A stretch of DNA of 64,000 nucleotides. Source: Gammaproteobacteria bacterium. GTDB taxonomy: Bacteria; Pseudomonadota; Gammaproteobacteria; Poriferisulfidales; Poriferisulfidaceae. Location: assembly GCA_026706895.1 (NCBI GenBank), contig JAPOXW010000029.1, positions 1 through 64,000 of the forward strand. The letters are read 5' to 3'. Shown piece by piece: positions 11,111-64,000 of the stretch. The translations under genes and the position numbers were made by a program. Under the pieces are notes generated by a model. That model searched no databases. It was not told the DNA's origin and saw nothing but the letters and a program-made list of their open reading frames with translations. Within the stretch, counting starts at the first letter, position 1. The number at the start of each line of letters is the position of its first letter.

Positions 11111-12976
11111 TCAATCGAAATGCCGCGTCAGTCCTGCGCTGAAATTCCGGCGCGGGGCCGCGTATCCGAGAACCTCTTGGTAGGATTCGTCGAGGAAGTT
11201 TCGCGCCTCGAAAAGAAGGTCGAACTTCGGGGCCAGGTTGTATCGCACGGACAGGTTGGCCAGGTAATAATTCTCGAGAGTTTTCCTTTCTGCGGGGAAA
11301 CTCGAGAAATCGTCGTCCAGCAGTCCCCGCACCGTCGTGAAATCCAGCCGCGAGTGCCACGAATCCGAGTGGTGCGCCAATGCCAACCGGTACTGGTGGC
11401 GGGGTCGGCGGACTTCTTTCCTGTCGGTTGCACCTCCCGAATCCGGTTCGGTTGCATGCAGGTAGGCGTAGTGGGCGGAGACGGTCCAGTCCGGATGAGG
11501 CTCGAATTCCAATTCCAGTTCTCCTCCCCAGCGTTCGGAGCGCCCGGATTCGTTGATGGCGGTGGGCAGTTCAGGGCCATCGAACCCGTCCGGGTCGTAG
11601 TATCCTCGGATCTCATCGCTCAGGCGCTGGTCGAAGAGGCTGAGGGCGATTCGGCAGCAGGTTCCGCCCGGGGAGTATTCGATGCCGATCTCGGTATTCC
11701 GGGAGCGTTCCGGTTTCAGGTCGGGGTTGCCCTGGAAGGTGCCCGGGAAATAGCCGTAGCGTTCAGTCAGGGTGGGGTTGGCGATCCCGATACCACTGGC
11801 TAGGTAGACCCGGGCCGGTCGATCGGGGAACTGGTAGGCGAAGGAGACGCGCCAGGTGTCGGCGTCCTCGAAATCATGGTTCTCGTCGCGCCGGAGTGAC
11901 AGGTCGACCGTGGTCTGGGGGTCGGGTTGCCAGTTCAGCGTCATGAACGCGCTGGAGGAGATGAAATGCAAGGGCTTGATGCCCTTCCGGTCATAGCGTT
12001 CCCGGCTCCACTCCAGGCCAGCGCCAAGGGTGCAGGGGCGGCCTAGGAAGCAATCCTCGAAGTCGCGCCAAACCAATTCGTCGATCTGAATGCGGCGCCC
12101 CCTGGTTTCGGTCGGGAAGGCATCCTGAAACTGATTTGTCGTCTGCAGGTAGCTGAAGTTCGCCTGGTGCCTGAAGGAACCAGTTTTTGTGTGCAGGCTG
12201 GCGTTCAGATAGTTCCGACGGCTTTTCGAGGTGTGTGGGGCGTCCGAGGGTCCGGATCCGTCATATTCCGAATTCGCATGCGTCCGACGAACGGAAAAGC
12301 GGAAGTCGGTCTCCACCGAAGGGCGCCACTGCCCGCCCCATTGCAGGGTATTGTTCCGATAGCCGTCCCGCTCCGAACCGGTCAACGAGATGTTCTCGCC
12401 CCGCGTCTGGAAATGGTGCGCGCTGGCTTGCATGCTGAAGCCTTCGGACTCGGTGGCGACCTGGAGCGTGGTTTCATGACGCTGGTTCGAGCCGGATTTC
12501 TGGGTCAGGCTGGAACTGCCTCCTTTTCGGCTGATCAGATTGACGATGCCGGAGATGGCGTCGCTCCCCCACAGGGCACTTGGCGCGCCCCGCAGGATCT
12601 CGATTCGCTCGATCCCGGCGATGCTTAGGTGGGCGAAATCCACGCTGCCGCTGGTCGGGTCGCTCAACTCGATGCCATCCAGAAGGATGCGCGTATGGTT
12701 GGATTCGCCGCCGCGCATTCTCAGGGCCGTCAGCGTCCCGCTACCCCCTTGCTGGCTGACGGTCAGCCCAGGGATCTCGCGCAGGACATCCGAGATGGTG
12801 GCACCCGTCCCGCGCCAGTCGTCCAAGTCGATGACGGTGATGCTGCTGCCGACGGTGTGCAGGGGCTGGGGGATGCGCGAAGCGGTGATGATGATGGTTT
12901 CGATATCCTGCGCGGCAGGCAGGGGCGAACACCAAAGTGCGATGAGCGCAAGCGGCAACCAGTTCTTTTTGGACAT
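11111..12976 (-). CDS. btuB: TonB-dependent outer-membrane receptor, BtuB-like (cobalamin/corrinoid)
   Basis: This 621-residue protein has a signal peptide (residues 1-22), a TonB-box-like start 'ETIIITASRIPQ', the plug domain (about 40-150, 'GGESNHTRILLDGIEL', 'IEILRGAPSALWGSDAISGIV') and a beta-barrel ending in the canonical terminal aromatic pattern 'GLTRHFD'. The overall pattern fits BtuB. The strongest support for cobalamin as ligand is the cobalamin riboswitch immediately upstream. The ATG at 12976 has GGAG seven bases before it; a TTG five codons earlier is possible. No btuC/D/F genes follow. Transport of a related corrinoid cannot be excluded. Confidence 0.88.
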   Translation of the reverse strand: MSKKNWLPLALIALWCSPLPAAQDIETIIITASRIPQPLHTVGSSITVIDLDDWRGTGATISDVLREIPGLTVSQQGGSGTLTALRMRGGESNHTRILLDGIELSDPTSGSVDFAHLSIAGIERIEILRGAPSALWGSDAISGIVNLISRKGGSSSLTQKSGSNQRHETTLQVATESEGFSMQASAHHFQTRGENISLTGSERDGYRNNTLQWGGQWRPSVETDFRFSVRRTHANSEYDGSGPSDAPHTSKSRRNYLNASLHTKTGSFRHQANFSYLQTTNQFQDAFPTETRGRRIQIDELVWRDFEDCFLGRPCTLGAGLEWSRERYDRKGIKPLHFISSSAFMTLNWQPDPQTTVDLSLRRDENHDFEDADTWRVSFAYQFPDRPARVYLASGIGIANPTLTERYGYFPGTFQGNPDLKPERSRNTEIGIEYSPGGTCCRIALSLFDQRLSDEIRGYYDPDGFDGPELPTAINESGRSERWGGELELEFEPHPDWTVSAHYAYLHATEPDSGGATDRKEVRRPRHQYRLALAHHSDSWHSRLDFTTVRGLLDDDFSSFPAERKTLENYYLANLSVRYNLAPKFDLLFEARNFLDESYQEVLGYAAPRRNFSAGLTRHFD

Positions 12977-13075
12977 GTCGGCTCCAATCAAGGGTTGAAG
13001 CAGACATAGGGAAGCGGCACGGCCGGGCGACCGCGCGTCATCCCGGTAGCCCGCCGCAACCGTGACAATTCAGGA

Positions 13076-13225
13076 TGGGGCCGGTCTCCGGGCTCGCGAG
13101 GGTTTCCTGGACACTTCCTTCCCAGGCCGAGGCCCAGTGGCTTACGTGTCCCTCTCGCCTACCGTTGCGGGGGCAGCGCCGGCTTTGCGTTTGCGCACCG
13201 GCTTCCCTGTTTCATCTGTCGGGCA
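13076..13225 (-). ncRNA. Cobalamin (adenosylcobalamin) riboswitch
   Basis: On the minus strand the conserved B12 box GCTGCCCCCGCAACGGTA occupies 13160-13177. In order around it are the family's other landmarks: 'AGGGAAGCCGGTG' (about 13198-13210), 'AAGCCACTGG' (about 13136-13145), 'GGGAAGG' (about 13116-13122) and 'GAGCCCGGAGACCGGCC' (about 13077-13093). The order and spacing match the aptamer core. Downstream, a GC-rich hairpin region (about 13022-13055) with paired CGGGC/GCCCG ends lies before the receptor start and may be the expression platform. Ligand binding would repress the BtuB-like gene. Confidence 0.93.
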
Positions 13226-13278
13226 GACACCCCATCCCGCAGGGTGGGGCCAGTGTAGCACGGGGAAAAAGGGAAGCG

Positions 13279-58195: not shown

Positions 58196-59545
58196 ATGTA
58201 TGACGTTTTAATAATTGGTGCAGGAACCGCAGGTATTGCAGCAGCCAAACAATTGGAAAAATTGAATGCCAAATATTTGCTGATAGAAGAGGGAGATGGG
58301 GGTACGACGTGTGCAAAGACGGGATGTATGCCATCTAAAGGGCTAATTGAAATCGCAAAGAAGGTTAATAATATTCAGTCTTTAACTAAAGATAATTTTA
58401 TCCAACAAAATCAATTCAAAATTGATACTGCTTCTGTGCTGAAAAAAGTACGTACACTTAGAGATCATTTTGTCAAGAGAGCAATTAAAGGGAGTGAAAA
58501 ATTTCCTCGAATCAAAGGAAGTGCAAAATTTATTGATACCAATACCATTGAAGTCAATGGGGAAAAAATATCGGCAAACAATATAATTATTGCAAATGGC
58601 TCAAGGCCGAGAATACCGGATGTATTTGAAGAGGTAAAATCCAAAATATTAACTACTGACAATTTTTTTGAACAAGAAAAGCTGCCAGATAGCATAGCTG
58701 TTGTCGGGCTGGGTATTATCGGGGTAGAGTTTGCTCAAGCTCTTGCAAGATTGGGAGTAAAAGTACAAGTATATGAAGAATATAAAACAATAGCAGGAAT
58801 ACAAGATGAAAAAGTTTTTCATCATGCACTTTCTCTTCAACAGCAGTACTACCCGATTCACTTTAATACCAAGATCGAAAAAGTAACTGAGCAAGCAGGG
58901 AAGTTCTTGATTGAGTGGAAAAATGGTCGATTAGAAGTTGACCAAGTATTGTTGTGTGCTGGAAGAGAATCCAATATTGATCAATTGAACTTGGGAAAAC
59001 TAGGGTTAGATACTACGGACACAGCAAACACGTTATATGACCCCTGCACGTTGCAGATAAATGATTTTCCAATTTATGTGGCCGGTGATGTTAGTTCCAA
59101 GAAAATGGTGGTGCATGAAGCCGCGGAAGAAGCAAGAGTTGCGGTATACAATGCGATGCATACTAAAAAGAAAAAACTTGCAAAGCCTGCTTTAAATATA
59201 GTTTTTACTGACCCGCCCATAGCAAGAGTAGGCCAGTCATTAAATGAACTCGACCAGGAAAAGTGTGTTATTGGTGAATTCGATTTTGCTCTGCAAGGGC
59301 GTGCAACTTTAAAAGGGGAAAATCATGGCGTTGTACGGGTTTATGTGAATTCAAGAAACGATCATATTCTCGGTGCAGAAATGATAGCCCCAGGTGCGGA
59401 AAATTTTGCACATTTGTTAATGATGGCCATTCAAAATGAGATTCCATTACACAAGCTATTACGACTACCTATCTATCATCCGGTTTTGGAAGAAGGATTA
59501 CGCCAAGCATTAGTTAATGCAAAAAGCAAGTCAGCAGTTACATAA
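58196..59545 (+). CDS. Dihydrolipoyl dehydrogenase-like FAD disulfide oxidoreductase
   Basis: This 449-residue class I flavoprotein has an FAD-binding motif 'GAGTAGIAAA' (8-17), redox cysteines C39 and C44 in 'TCAKTGCMPSKGL', an NAD-binding 'GLGIIGVEFA' (about 171-180) and the dimer-partner motif 'YHPVLEEGLRQAL' with catalytic His and Glu. These are complete, so disulfide reductase chemistry is expected. No E2 lipoyl-domain or merA-like N-terminal domain is present, so substrate is unknown; mycothione-, glutathione- or lipoamide-type disulfides are all possible. The gene is strikingly AT-rich compared with addA, strongly suggesting transfer. A ribosome site GGGA precedes the ATG. Confidence 0.85.
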   Translation: MYDVLIIGAGTAGIAAAKQLEKLNAKYLLIEEGDGGTTCAKTGCMPSKGLIEIAKKVNNIQSLTKDNFIQQNQFKIDTASVLKKVRTLRDHFVKRAIKGSEKFPRIKGSAKFIDTNTIEVNGEKISANNIIIANGSRPRIPDVFEEVKSKILTTDNFFEQEKLPDSIAVVGLGIIGVEFAQALARLGVKVQVYEEYKTIAGIQDEKVFHHALSLQQQYYPIHFNTKIEKVTEQAGKFLIEWKNGRLEVDQVLLCAGRESNIDQLNLGKLGLDTTDTANTLYDPCTLQINDFPIYVAGDVSSKKMVVHEAAEEARVAVYNAMHTKKKKLAKPALNIVFTDPPIARVGQSLNELDQEKCVIGEFDFALQGRATLKGENHGVVRVYVNSRNDHILGAEMIAPGAENFAHLLMMAIQNEIPLHKLLRLPIYHPVLEEGLRQALVNAKSKSAVT

Positions 59546-59716
59546 GCTTTCCCGTTGCGCGTGAGGCACCTGGGACACCCGCCGCAGGCCCGCCGGCAAT
59601 GGGCCAAATGGGAGGCCGCCTACAACCGTGTCCGACCTCACGAAAGCCTCGACCTGATGACTCCGCTAGAACACGTCAAGGTGCATCCGCCAAGCGAGGC
59701 TTGTTCCGATATGTAG
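59546..59716 (+). mobile_element. 3' remnant of an IS transposase (integrase core, IS3/IS481 type)
   Basis: Directly after the flavoprotein stop, GC-rich sequence encodes 'RRQWAKWEAAYNRVRPHESL' continuing 'DLMTPLEHVKV' and ending at TAG 59714-59716. The 'W...YN..RPHESL....P' pattern is the C-terminus of DDE integrase-core transposases. The rest of the transposase and both terminal repeats are missing. Base composition contrasts with both flanks. Confidence 0.7.
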
Positions 59717-59820: not shown

Positions 59821-60933
59821 ATGAAAATCAGAGATGAAGAGGTGCTTATACCTACCAGTATTGTAGGTAATTATCCTAACCCGCGTTGGTGGGATACGTT
59901 GTGGGCGACCAATTTTTCGGGAGACCAGGCGCCACCGGATGCGAAAGAGCGAGAAGCATTGGAGGACGCAATAGCCACTATGGCGCACGATCAAGAAATG
60001 GCAGGGCTGGACATTATTTCGGATGGCCGGGTACAAGGCGATAATTATGTTGATCAAATCGTGTACTACTACCTTAAGCGTCTTGGCTACAGCATGCATG
60101 GGGAATACCTGGCCACACCACTTTATAGTGACTTACACTCCGCGACCTGCCATCAAGAAATCAAACGCTACGGCCCAATCATGATTCAACAGGCCAGGGC
60201 ATTGAAACGGGCTACTGACAAACCGATTAAAGTGCAATACACGGGGGTTCAAGCTTTGGCTCAATGTACAAATGATTATTACTACAAGTCCAGTTATGAT
60301 CGAGCGATGGCAATTGCCACAGCACTGAACGAAGAACTCCTTGAATTAGACGAGATGGGTGTAGACTTCATTCAATTGGACGAGTTTACATGGCCTTACC
60401 TTTTTGAAGATTGGGCGATAGAGGCCTACAACCGATGTGTGGCAGGTGTCAAAAACTCCAAGATTGTCACACATGTCTGCTGGGGAAACTACAAAGGTAC
60501 TTACGGGTATTACATGGAAGAAGGAGCAGACGATTTTGATATCACCAAGCGAGCAGGTGAAAATCCAACGAATCGAGCTGAATCCATCATACCGAAATGT
60601 TATGAGGCGAACCTGGATGTCATTAACATAGAAAACTGTGGCAGATGTGAGGGCGAACTGGATGTTCTGGAAACACATCCGCTGCCGGATAACATGTACT
60701 TTTGGGCAGGGGTCATCGATATCAAGAGCACGATTGTTGAAACCGCTGACCAGGTAGCTGATCGTATCCGGGGCCTGCTCAAGTATGTTCCTGCCGACCG
60801 CCTTGGGGTTACAACCGATTGTGGTCTTATTCACTTTTGGCGCTACATCGCCTATGAAAAAATGCGTGCTCTTGTTGAAGGAACAAAAATCGTGCGTGAA
60901 GAATTGCAAAAGGAATTAAAGAGAGCTGCATGA
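59821..60933 (+). CDS. Core-MetE-like zinc methyltransferase (cobalamin-independent methionine synthase family, C-terminal domain only)
   Basis: A 370-residue TIM-barrel protein matching only the catalytic C-terminal half of MetE. All zinc-site residues are in register: H218 and C220 ('VTHVCWGNYKG'), E271 ('NIENCGRC') and C334 ('GVTTDCGL'). The substrate Asp-Glu pair is 'IQLDEFTW' (187-188). The N-terminal MetE domain that helps bind folate is missing, so a corrinoid protein or another methyl donor/acceptor is likely; this is known for 'core-MetE' proteins. Ribosome site GAGAGG is 9 bases upstream. First gene after the IS remnant; the following four genes are close together and same-strand. 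Substrate unknown. Confidence 0.8.
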   Translation: MKIRDEEVLIPTSIVGNYPNPRWWDTLWATNFSGDQAPPDAKEREALEDAIATMAHDQEMAGLDIISDGRVQGDNYVDQIVYYYLKRLGYSMHGEYLATPLYSDLHSATCHQEIKRYGPIMIQQARALKRATDKPIKVQYTGVQALAQCTNDYYYKSSYDRAMAIATALNEELLELDEMGVDFIQLDEFTWPYLFEDWAIEAYNRCVAGVKNSKIVTHVCWGNYKGTYGYYMEEGADDFDITKRAGENPTNRAESIIPKCYEANLDVINIENCGRCEGELDVLETHPLPDNMYFWAGVIDIKSTIVETADQVADRIRGLLKYVPADRLGVTTDCGLIHFWRYIAYEKMRALVEGTKIVREELQKELKRAA

Positions 60934-60973
60934 TGCACTGATCGAAAATAAAGTTAATGGAGATTCTGTATCC

Positions 60974-61183
60974 ATGCCGGTTCTAACCTTATGGTGCGCG
61001 GATTGTGAACGGGAGTTCAAAGGCATGGTTATGACTGGTGCGAAAGTTCCTGATGTGTGGGTTTGCGTGGTCTGTAAAAGTGATCGCGCAAGTCCAATAC
61101 ACGAAGATCATCATTCACATCCCTGGGCGAAAGATCCATGCGATCATGATTCTCATAGGACCTGCCCTTGCTGCGTAGTGTAA
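60974..61183 (+). CDS. Small Cys/His-rich zinc-ribbon protein (69 aa)
   Basis: Not a recognised family. C8-x2-C11 and C31-x2-C34 form a typical zinc ribbon; the C-terminal third adds six histidines (43, 46, 47, 49, 58, 61) and C56, C64, C66, C67 ('CPCC'). This suggests a metal-binding or redox partner, possibly for the adjacent zinc methyltransferase or CoA-transferase-like proteins. It lies 40 bases after the methyltransferase gene and four bases before the next. Confidence 0.6.
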   Translation: MPVLTLWCADCEREFKGMVMTGAKVPDVWVCVVCKSDRASPIHEDHHSHPWAKDPCDHDSHRTCPCCVV

Positions 61184-61187
61184 TCGT

Positions 61188-62132
61188 GTGTTGACTCGCC
61201 ACTCGACCGCAGAGAACAAATCTACCAGCATTGAAGCACTAGCTTCACAAGTTAAATCCGGAGATTGTGTAGCAGTCGGAGGTGGCTTGTCATCACGTGA
61301 GCCGATGGCTCTGATCCGTTCAATCATCCGCAATCGTGTTAACGGTTTGACAGTGGTCGGTTCTGCACACGGAATTGACATCGATTTGCTGTGTGGTGCA
61401 AATGCGGTTTCTGCGTCTCAAGAAAGTTATGTAGGGTTTGAACAAGATTTTGGCATGGCGCACAACTATCGACGAGGATGTGAAAGTGGCGAAATAGAAA
61501 TTCAGGACAATTGCTGCTATACGCTTGTTCAACAACTTCGTGCCTCGATACAAGGCTTACCATTTATGCCCATTCAATCAGTAAGAGGCACCGATTTTGA
61601 AAAAAATCATCCAAGTTATAAAACGATACAGAGTCCTTATTCGGGAGAGGACATATTAGTTGTTCCACCTCTTACACCGGATGTGGCAATTATTCATGCC
61701 CAATATGCCGACTTGCATGGCAATTTGAGGATTGAAGGTCCTCCAGTCGTTGACTTGCTGTTTGCGCAGGCATCAAGAACAGTATTGGCAACAGTTGAAA
61801 AGATCGTAACAAATGAAGAATTGAAGCGTCTCGGTGGTGCAAATATTCCGTACTTTTATGTGTCATACATTGCTGAAGCACCCATGGGCGCTCATCCGAC
61901 CGCTTGCTATCCATTTTATGCCTATGATCGTGAACATACCGAGTTATACATGTCTGCTGCGAAAGAAGGTTCAACAGCGTTCAAAAAAAAATATTTGAAA
62001 GATTTCGTATATGAATGTGAAAGTCATGAAGAATACCTGCATCGCATTGGCGGAGAAGATACACGTGTAAGACTATCTAGCTGGAAGGAATCAACTGATG
62101 CTTGGATGGAGTTATACAAGGAAAGTACATAA
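61188..62132 (+). CDS. CoA-transferase-fold protein, alpha subunit (IpdA-like)
   Basis: This 314-residue protein resembles the alpha subunits of the CoA-transferase superfamily, particularly the IpdA-type proteins: 'GDCVAVGGGLSSREPMALIRSIIRNRVNGLTVVG', 'DIDLLCGANAV', 'LPFMPIQSVRGTDF' and 'EAPMGAHPTACYP' follow the IpdA layout. In Mycobacterium IpdAB hydrolyses a cyclic beta-keto-CoA in steroid ring breakdown and does not transfer CoA. A similar retro-Claisen or other CoA chemistry here is inference. The start is GTG (61188) without a strong ribosome site; it follows the zinc-ribbon gene by four bases. Confidence 0.72.
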   Translation: MLTRHSTAENKSTSIEALASQVKSGDCVAVGGGLSSREPMALIRSIIRNRVNGLTVVGSAHGIDIDLLCGANAVSASQESYVGFEQDFGMAHNYRRGCESGEIEIQDNCCYTLVQQLRASIQGLPFMPIQSVRGTDFEKNHPSYKTIQSPYSGEDILVVPPLTPDVAIIHAQYADLHGNLRIEGPPVVDLLFAQASRTVLATVEKIVTNEELKRLGGANIPYFYVSYIAEAPMGAHPTACYPFYAYDREHTELYMSAAKEGSTAFKKKYLKDFVYECESHEEYLHRIGGEDTRVRLSSWKESTDAWMELYKEST

Positions 62133-62134
62133 AT

Positions 62135-62989
62135 ATGGGCAAGAATTGCACGCTGGGCGAGCTACTTATCGATCAACTGGCGCGAACTGTTGAAGATGAC
62201 ACATTAGTGTTCCATGGATTTGGATCACCATTAGTTCAGATTGCATTGCATGTTGCCAAAAGGGTATACACCCCTAATTTGGTGCTGGTAGCTGGTGCTA
62301 CCTATGGAGTCAATCCAGATCCTCCTTTCATAGCTCCCACGACTAACGACTGGGTACATGACCGAAACTCTGAATGCCACCTAAGCATTGGTGAGTTATT
62401 CGATTTGTCTGCAAGTGGGCGCTTGGGGAGAATGTTTTTATCAGGCCTGCAAATCGATCGTTGGGGCAATACCAATGTAACTCAGCTGGGCCGTAAAACC
62501 TTAAAGCTGAAACTGCCGGGGGGTGGCGGTGCTTGTAACCTGTCATGTAATGCAAAAAATATAACATTGTGGACCGCAGCACATCGTTCAGAGCCAGTAA
62601 AAGGAAAGCGCCGCTATCGGATCGTCTCGCAGTGTGACTATGTCACCGGTTTTGGCCACAAGAACGCCGATGGGATTACTCGCAGGCAACTTGGGTACCT
62701 GGGTAACGGCCCACAGTGTCTCGTTACGGATTTAGGCGTTTTTGATTTCGACCAGGACGGGCATTTGCGATTGAATGTTCTCTATCCGCACACCACTGTA
62801 GACGATGTTCTGGAAAATACTGAATTTGAACCAAGAATGAAGAAAGAGGTTAAGACAGTTTCGCTTCCTTCTTTAGAAGTGCTTTCGATCATCCGAAAAC
62901 TTGATCCACTTCGTATTCATGAAAAGGAATTATCACCCGGGGACCGCTCATTGACATTGGAAGAGCCTAAAAATGCAGCAATCTGTTGA
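62135..62989 (+). CDS. CoA-transferase-fold protein, beta subunit (IpdB-like)
   Basis: A 284-residue partner of the preceding gene. 'FLSGLQIDRWGNTNVTQLG' and 'LPGGGGACNLSCNAKN' match the beta-subunit glycine-rich region, while 'DLGVFDFDQDGHLRLNVLYPHTTVDDVLENT' is typical of the IpdB-type C-terminus. The glutamate-containing 'SENG'-type motif of classical CoA-transferases is not seen, consistent with the IpdAB-type chemistry. The ATG at 62135 lies two bases past the alpha stop. Confidence 0.72.
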   Translation: MGKNCTLGELLIDQLARTVEDDTLVFHGFGSPLVQIALHVAKRVYTPNLVLVAGATYGVNPDPPFIAPTTNDWVHDRNSECHLSIGELFDLSASGRLGRMFLSGLQIDRWGNTNVTQLGRKTLKLKLPGGGGACNLSCNAKNITLWTAAHRSEPVKGKRRYRIVSQCDYVTGFGHKNADGITRRQLGYLGNGPQCLVTDLGVFDFDQDGHLRLNVLYPHTTVDDVLENTEFEPRMKKEVKTVSLPSLEVLSIIRKLDPLRIHEKELSPGDRSLTLEEPKNAAIC

Positions 62990-63917
62990 ACAATCCCAAA
63001 CGAGCATGAAACAAGTAGATTTCTCGGCTAAGTATCGAGACAAAAACAATATTGTTCCCATTCCTTATCGCAAAACCAGTGTTCAGAAATACGCTGGAGA
63101 GATGTCCGAGAAAGCGGTGCAGTCATACTTGTTGGGGAAAGAAGCGTATCGGCGTACAGAATTTATTGTGCTCAAAGGGGGCAACCAGGAAAATGCAGTC
63201 GTTGCCATTCAAAAGTCTGACGATCAATCGCTATTTTCAGATATAACTCATGTTGAAATTCTAGGCCTTCCGGAAAACTGCATTTACGTTCAAGACAGCA
63301 GTGTTGATTGCGCGAATCGATCTGCCATGGCTGAAGCTGCTTTTCGCAATCAAGTAAAAAAAAGTGGAATATGCATTGTTGAAGGCAAGTATGACCATAT
63401 CAACTTCATATGTCGTCCTGACCCGCTTGTGCTTCAGGTACTGGAAGTCGAACCACCTTCTCCACCAAAATTATATGACATGGTAGTACAGGCATTAAGT
63501 TATGCTGATTTGCCTCCCATTCTTGTTGAGTTCAAAGCAATTGATGTAAGAGAGCTATGTCACAGTGTAGATCCTGAATGTTACTTGCTGCCTTGTAGAT
63601 CAGGTGGGATGGATCAACTACAAAAGCCTGTATATTTCTTGGACGAGCGTCCCAAGCAACGCAAAAACTGGGTTTTAATAGGATGTGAAAGAAGTCTTCA
63701 ATTTCATCGACACTATTATGGAGATGAGCCACCCCAGGTTGAGATGTGTCCACGCAAGCTTCGACAAGAATCTGGAGTGCCTACACTATTGAAGTGTTGT
63801 CTACTTGAATTCGAGATTGAAAGAGATGGGGACCTGATGGTTGTTCCTTGGGGTGCTGATCTCACTATGGTAGAACAAGCTTTGCGGGAAATTTCGAGTG
63901 AGGTTGAGTATGTCTAA
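62973..63917 (+). CDS. Uncharacterised 314-residue protein of the CoA-transferase-like cluster
   Basis: I do not recognise this protein. It is soluble, with cysteines clustered in the second half ('FICRPDP', 'VRELCHSVDPECYLLPCRSGG', 'LIGCERS', 'VEMCPRKL', 'LKCCLLEFE'), enough for an Fe-S or zinc site. Local themes such as 'EVEPPSPPKLYDMVVQALSYADLPPILVEFKAIDV' suggest an alpha/beta fold. It overlaps the beta subunit gene by 17 bases and the next gene by eight, so it must be co-translated with this operon. A metabolic or maturation role in the cluster is inferred. Confidence 0.6.
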   Translation: MQQSVEQSQTSMKQVDFSAKYRDKNNIVPIPYRKTSVQKYAGEMSEKAVQSYLLGKEAYRRTEFIVLKGGNQENAVVAIQKSDDQSLFSDITHVEILGLPENCIYVQDSSVDCANRSAMAEAAFRNQVKKSGICIVEGKYDHINFICRPDPLVLQVLEVEPPSPPKLYDMVVQALSYADLPPILVEFKAIDVRELCHSVDPECYLLPCRSGGMDQLQKPVYFLDERPKQRKNWVLIGCERSLQFHRHYYGDEPPQVEMCPRKLRQESGVPTLLKCCLLEFEIERDGDLMVVPWGADLTMVEQALREISSEVEYV

Positions 63918-64000
63918 GTCTGCTTGGGATGGGATTCAAGTCATAAGTGAATTCATGAAAGAGCGTGTAGAGCGGCAAAAAAACGTTGGTATGACGATGG
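63910..64000 (+). CDS. Start of a further cluster gene (cut by window edge)
   Basis: ATG at 63910 overlaps the previous stop by eight bases. The visible 30 codons read 'MSKSAWDGIQVISEFMKERV' and continue to the edge without a stop. A helical, charged N-terminus; no assignment is possible. Its existence shows that the operon continues beyond the window. Confidence 0.6.
   Translation, partial: MSKSAWDGIQVISEFMKERVERQKNVGMTM

Follow-up and report, generated by a model that had tools for sequence, protein, structure and literature searches.

A transferred coenzyme M island in a Candidatus Porisulfidus genome, probably for short-chain epoxide use

Genes of the island and their host

The window analyzed here covers the first 64,000 nt of a contig of 125,474 bases from a genome of 1.69 Mb (G000). 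Its right edge cuts an operon that continues for another 9.5 kb when the contig is read on. The operon begins with a predicted epoxyalkane:coenzyme M transferase (EaCoMT) and a small zinc-ribbon protein. These are followed by two subunits with a coenzyme A (CoA)-transferase fold (CoAT_A and CoAT_B), the XcbA-E proteins of bacterial coenzyme M (CoM) biosynthesis and further genes beyond the window (Table 1). The operon is homologous to known CoM clusters and shares their gene order, is conserved within its genus and has been transferred laterally. From the sequence comparisons below we conclude, with a probability of roughly 0.85, that this is a horizontally acquired operon whose products would make CoM and apply it to a short-chain epoxide, epoxyethane being the likeliest.

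The nearest named relative of the host is Candidatus Porisulfidus sp. TsSOB, whose EaCoMT is 98% identical. We take the genus to consist of sulfur-oxidizing sponge symbionts. One paper that mentions Porisulfidus uses it only as an outgroup of SUP05, and a literature search found no paper linking sponge symbionts with epoxyalkane or CoM use. The operon is present in four of six Porisulfidus genomes (G000 and the compared genomes G001-G005 of the same genus), which make up the whole family among the genomes examined.

The genes named in a first-pass annotation of the window are open where it placed them, and the one that it called a methyltransferase ends 40 bases before the next gene. A disulfide reductase encoded further upstream, from position 58196, is found in exactly the four island-bearing genomes and is for that reason counted as an island member. 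A promoter and terminator scan returned fewer sites than were found in shuffled sequence and is thus uninformative. The region is covered by locus L006, in which window positions equal L006 positions plus 55999.

Table 1. Features of the island and its right flank (window coordinates; contig coordinates past the window edge).
Feature	Position	Strand	Remarks
Pyridine nucleotide-disulfide oxidoreductase, 449 aa	58196..59545	+	Redox motif CxxxxC, residues 39-44; 38% GC; island member
Remnant resembling the C-terminus of an insertion sequence (IS) protein or integrase	59555..59716	+	Between reductase and operon; translation read by eye
EaCoMT (XecA/EtnE), MetE-core	59821..60933	+	PF01717, E 1e-23
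Zinc-ribbon mini-protein, 69 aa, Cys/His-rich	60974..61183	+	Weak Zn_ribbon_8 match, E 0.004
CoA-transferase-fold subunit A (CoAT_A)	61188..62132	+	PF01144
CoA-transferase-fold subunit B (CoAT_B)	62135..62989	+	PF01144
XcbA family protein (DUF7714), Cys-rich	62973..63917	+	E 7e-83; five invariant Cys
XcbB start, ComA-type phosphosulfolactate synthase	63898..64000, cut by window edge	+	The "additional gene" of the first-pass annotation
In order: xcbB remainder, xcbC, xcbD, xcbE, CoA-acylating aldehyde dehydrogenase, GMC oxidoreductase, glutathione S-transferase (GST), major facilitator superfamily (MFS) transporter	Past window edge, to contig 73,534
tRNA-Leu(gag)	Directly after the right end of the island at contig 73,534		Then secG-tpiA-glmM

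An epoxyalkane:CoM transferase with a zinc-ribbon partner

The protein encoded at 59821 is identified by its closest relatives as an epoxyalkane:CoM transferase. It shares 65% identity over 97% of its length with XecA, the 2-hydroxypropyl-CoM lyase of Xanthobacter autotrophicus Py2, and 44-49% with EtnE of Mycolicibacterium NBB4 and Nocardioides JS614. Identity to general MetE-core proteins, the next non-EaCoMT plasmid matches, is about 31%. The residues H218-x-C220 and C334, which we take to be the zinc ligands from what is established for MetE and EaCoMT, are invariant in the EaCoMT alignment, including this protein. A cobalamin-independent methionine synthase was considered and rejected, as the NCBIfam models score far below their cut-offs (188 versus 406 and 165 versus 392 bits). 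The MetE-core fold that the first-pass annotation recognized is thus real, but the methyl transfer that it predicted is not borne out.

An EaCoMT profile scan of 84,980 species genomes recovered at least 79 loci. The zinc-ribbon protein is 50% identical over 50 aa to Xaut_4866, encoded directly after xecA in Py2. Among the loci listed, a zinc ribbon lies near 46 of 53 XecA-type transferases and near only 1 of 24 of the EtnE type; the sole EtnE-type case (L055) is an intermediate form from Dadabacteria. In four Burkholderiales loci (L018, L020, L027 and L081) the EaCoMT gene with its zinc ribbon stands in a divergent arrangement, and a second MetE-core paralogue, 33% identical and with its own zinc ribbon, is found on the CoM-operon side.

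CoM biosynthesis

The island encodes what its family matches identify as the bacterial CoM biosynthesis set XcbA-E. XcbA (NF052538, 446 bits versus a cut-off of 150), XcbB (TIGR03849, 286.5 versus 280; also PF02679) and XcbD (NF052536, 621.8 versus 600) exceed the cut-offs of their models. XcbC (570.8 versus 575) and XcbE (444.6 versus 450) fall just below; for both, this is the best family and the gene is in the expected place. The five proteins are 42-63% identical to their counterparts in Py2, the organism in which the bacterial CoM pathway has been completely determined (PMC12068725).

The AlphaFold2 model of XcbA is confident (pLDDT 93.6) and has no convincing match among folds in the PDB (TM-scores, normalized by query length, of at most about 0.2). 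The XcbA/DUF7714 family also matches in Methanosarcina acetivorans, a CoM-making archaeon included as a control. To our knowledge, few bacteria are known to have CoM; most of them grow on alkenes, and methanotrophs have recently been added.

The cluster recurs across phyla and belongs to a described kind

EaCoMT, both CoAT subunits, XcbA and XcbB occur together in 45 of the 79 loci listed, often in the same order. The clustered loci span gamma-, alpha- and betaproteobacteria (including methanotrophs), actinobacteria and Chloroflexota. This recurrence in several phyla supports the earlier suggestion that the operon acts as one system.

The cluster is the one described for the methanotroph Methylohalobius crimeensis, and we therefore regard the island as a member of that kind. 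In M. crimeensis most proteins of the cluster rise on exposure to ethylene, and epoxyethane detoxification has been proposed as its role (PMC11507031). There, too, EtnE, the CoAT pair, CoM biosynthesis and a sulfoacetaldehyde-dehydrogenase-like gene lie together in a genomic island, with no dedicated alkene monooxygenase (PMC11507031). Methanotroph hosts, however, have particulate methane monooxygenase (pMMO) to make the epoxide, and none was found in G000. The short-chain dehydrogenase/reductase (SDR), acyl-CoA synthetase and MEDS regulator of the methanotroph clusters are likewise not seen in this island.

The other two comparisons share different parts of the island. In Py2, in addition to the xecA and xcbA-E homologs and the zinc ribbon after the transferase, a second cluster, L113, is likewise ordered CoAT_A-CoAT_B-XcbA-XcbB-XcbC-XcbD. 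Unlike Py2, the island is without alkene monooxygenase, 2-ketopropyl-CoM oxidoreductase/carboxylase (2-KPCC) and SDR dehydrogenases; instead, genes for an acylating aldehyde dehydrogenase, GMC oxidoreductase, GST and MFS transporter follow, and all are in one island. In Nocardioides JS614 and Mycolicibacterium, the ethylene (etn) clusters resemble it in their CoAT pair (43-48% identity) and in the aldehyde dehydrogenase (61% to JS614). The CoAT pair and CoA-acylating aldehyde dehydrogenase that go with EaCoMT in the ethylene-type pathway are both present here. The etn clusters differ in their more distant transferase, in having no zinc ribbon and in a CoAT_B that retains the equivalent of Glu54 of glutaconate CoA-transferase subunit B (GctB).

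The first-pass annotation had proposed an undescribed pathway and had named a match to a characterized catabolic operon as what would count against it. The set is the Py2/ethylene-type CoM cluster, which is such a match. The cluster is thus of a known kind in an unexpected host: what is unusual is a sponge-symbiont sulfur oxidizer in which none of the usual epoxide-making enzymes was found, with GMC and disulfide reductase genes where the usual redox genes would be.

EaCoMT/CoM clusters also occur in Acidimicrobiia and other bins (L035, L039, L041, L044, L049 and L054), whose sample codes we take to denote sponge metagenomes (the code CO36387 has the same pattern as that of L058). If so, several phyla of sponge symbionts may use CoM. 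A further contig, L090 (MPMZ01000015.1), is filed under "Nitrospira sp. bin75" and contains the Porisulfidus island, with proteins 90-98% identical; it is probably a misbinned Porisulfidus contig.

Lateral transfer between Porisulfidus species

The island is about 16 kb long, from approximately 57,640 on the left to the tRNA-Leu(gag) gene on the right. Its GC content is 38-46%, against 58-64% outside. In the sister genome G004 the site is empty, with only about 0.7 kb between the helicase gene and the tRNA-Leu. The block is 97-98% identical in three further genomes, which rules out chance or an assembly artefact.

Between G000 and G005, island genes share 97.3-98.1% DNA identity with 2-7.5% change at four-fold sites, whereas the flanking helicase, tpiA, glmM and secG genes share 73-86% with 30-46% change, a contrast that may be overstated by codon bias in the AT-rich island. 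Because the island is far more conserved than its flanks, it moved between species after their split. It has recently been transferred laterally between Porisulfidus species, and the AT-richness and transfer proposed in the first-pass annotation are both confirmed.

In G005, a 408-aa tyrosine-recombinase-like gene, read by eye (L111:7273-8499, minus strand), lies beside the same tRNA-Leu, together with a SIR2-like gene, also assigned by eye (L111:5882-7030, minus strand). Both are situated between the island MFS gene and the tRNA and are absent at that place in G000. When the left boundary was searched for an att direct repeat matching the tRNA-Leu end, the sole match was 13 bases long and chance-like; it lies at L006 1526, slightly beyond the boundary on the helicase side.

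The CoA-transferase-fold pair and its possible role in releasing CoM

The nearest solved relatives of the CoAT pair are GctAB, AibAB and IpdAB. Subunit A matches the folds of IpdA, AibA and GctA with TM-scores by query length of 0.82, 0.75 and 0.83, respectively. The IpdAB-like fold noted in the first-pass annotation therefore stands, but its chemistry does not follow. IpdA Glu105, which we placed by comparing structure 6co6 with the E105A mutant 6coj, aligns with Cys110, the second residue of a Cys109-Cys110 pair that sits at the start of helix 110-122 in the subunit A model. Cys110 is invariant in all 54 alignment rows that cover the site and Cys109 is present in 52 of them. The Cys-Cys pair is missing from a dozen plasmid relatives outside CoM clusters; one of these has a single Cys there, in a reading that contained a stop. 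IpdAB-type steroid catabolism was rejected, as the catalytic Glu is absent and no steroid genes are nearby; the leucine catabolism genes that would go with AibAB are not among the neighbors either.

The second catalytic position differs as well. In the GctB Glu54 column, fixed with a sequence checked against 1POI_B, 28 proteobacterial-type rows, including this subunit B, have Ala and 28 actinobacterial-type rows have Glu. Acyl-CoA ligase genes are neighbors in 25 of 26 loci with Glu and in 4 of 27 with Ala, although some Ala loci end at contig ends. Since Ala occupies the Glu54 column and Cys-Cys the Glu105 position, an ordinary CoA-transferase cycle by this pair appears unlikely. The lost Glu54 together with the Cys-Cys pair suggests a thiol step that would release CoM.

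For this last step, two proposals can be weighed. The pair could be an ordinary CoA transferase that activates carboxymethyl-CoM, with CoM freed by a 2-KPCC-like or other flavoenzyme alone; we give this somewhat less than an even chance. Its fold fits, half of the family (the actinobacterial type) retains the Glu54 equivalent, and "CoM reductase/carboxylase ... and CoA transferase" are listed for ethylene metabolism (PMC6440738). Against it stand the substitution of Glu54 by Ala in all 28 proteobacterial-type rows, a Cys-Cys pair found in none of the dozen relatives outside CoM clusters and the lack of 2-KPCC in G000.

The second proposal, which is more speculative and on balance doubtful, is that the pair itself releases CoM. 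The Cys110 thiolate would attack the thioether sulfur of CoM-S-CH2-CO-SCoA, with acetyl-CoA leaving as the enolate and Cys109 acting as the resolving residue. The resulting CoM mixed disulfide would be reduced by the neighboring disulfide oxidoreductase, and the symbiont would have a complete pathway for scavenging an epoxide that it does not make itself. The adjacent flavoprotein with its CxxxxC motif fits this proposal, which is modeled on 2-KPCC. If true, a CoA-transferase fold would here carry out a thiol reaction like that of 2-KPCC. Given the lost Glu and conserved Cys-Cys, two purified proteins would suffice to test the last step of ethylene catabolism directly.

A putative epoxide route and its alternatives

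We propose that XcbB, XcbC, XcbD, XcbE and XcbA together synthesize CoM, starting from phosphoenolpyruvate, sulfite and a thiol donor. With an epoxide, most likely epoxyethane, EaCoMT would then join CoM into a 2-hydroxyalkyl-CoM thioether. This may be converted to the aldehyde by an oxidoreductase; here the GMC enzyme probably takes the place of the usual SDR. The CoA-acylating aldehyde dehydrogenase may form the CoM-acetyl-CoA thioester. Finally, the CoAT pair and the 58196 disulfide reductase could free CoM and acetyl-CoA. The likely benefit is detoxification of the epoxide plus a gain of acetyl-CoA.

The propylene (xec) route was rejected: 2-KPCC is missing from G000, where the best match is a dihydrolipoamide-dehydrogenase-like protein at 25% identity, and this favors a route of the ethylene type over one of the propylene type. 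Several observations weigh against epoxide use. Soluble di-iron monooxygenases (SDIMO, PF02332) are absent from G000-G005, whereas the Py2 and NBB4 plasmids, used as positive controls, did match. The ammonia monooxygenase (AMO)/pMMO family (PF02461) gave no match in G000, in a search in which no positive control matched. For the hydroxyalkyl-CoM dehydrogenase, G000 offers general SDRs only, at 36% identity or less, and the GMC oxidoreductase and disulfide reductase stand in place of the usual redox genes. No acyl-CoA ligase was seen in the island, and no genome-wide search for one was made. The transferase also forms a deep, separate branch of the EaCoMT tree, so that its substrate may differ. 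With no SDIMO or AMO/pMMO found, the epoxide would have to come from the holobiont, from the surroundings (seawater) or from a P450 of the symbiont itself, for which G000 has two places, at C10:44873 and C13:85403.

The same missing oxygenases and divergent branch would also fit CoM made for another end, such as an antioxidant thiol, sulfonate exchange with the host or the disposal of other electrophiles, with an EaCoMT substrate other than a C2-C3 epoxide. The GST and MFS transporter of the island are compatible with this, and sulfur oxidizers should have sulfite, a substrate of XcbB. Against such a use stand the CoAT pair and acylating aldehyde dehydrogenase, which occur as in ethylene clusters and have stayed 97-99% identical at the protein level within the genus. 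We consider it improbable.

Decay of the island to a non-functional remnant in a streamlined symbiont is less probable still. G000 does not have the integrase that G005 carries beside the tRNA, the sister G004 is without the island and an IS-like remnant is present, but no island gene is broken in G000 or in the assembled parts of G001 and G005, and the proteins are 96-99% identical, which is uncommon for decay.

Least probable is an undescribed pathway in which methyl transfer is coupled to hydrolysis of a C-C bond in a CoA thioester. The MetE-core and CoA-transferase/IpdAB folds are both real, but the closest characterized relative of the supposed methyltransferase is XecA and not methionine synthase, the downstream genes are for CoM biosynthesis, Cys stands where IpdA has Glu105 and there is no such C-C bond to cut in the known pathway.

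The preferred reading, CoM synthesis and epoxide use, has consequences for the sponge environment. A full CoM set in a reduced-genome, sulfur-oxidizing genus of sponge symbionts, recently moved between species, implies real selection inside sponges by an epoxide or some other compound that reacts with CoM.

Elsewhere in the window, a cobalamin riboswitch (13062-13249, minus strand, 104 bits) lies ahead of a gene for a BtuB-like TonB-dependent receptor (11111-12991, minus strand), an ordinary arrangement.

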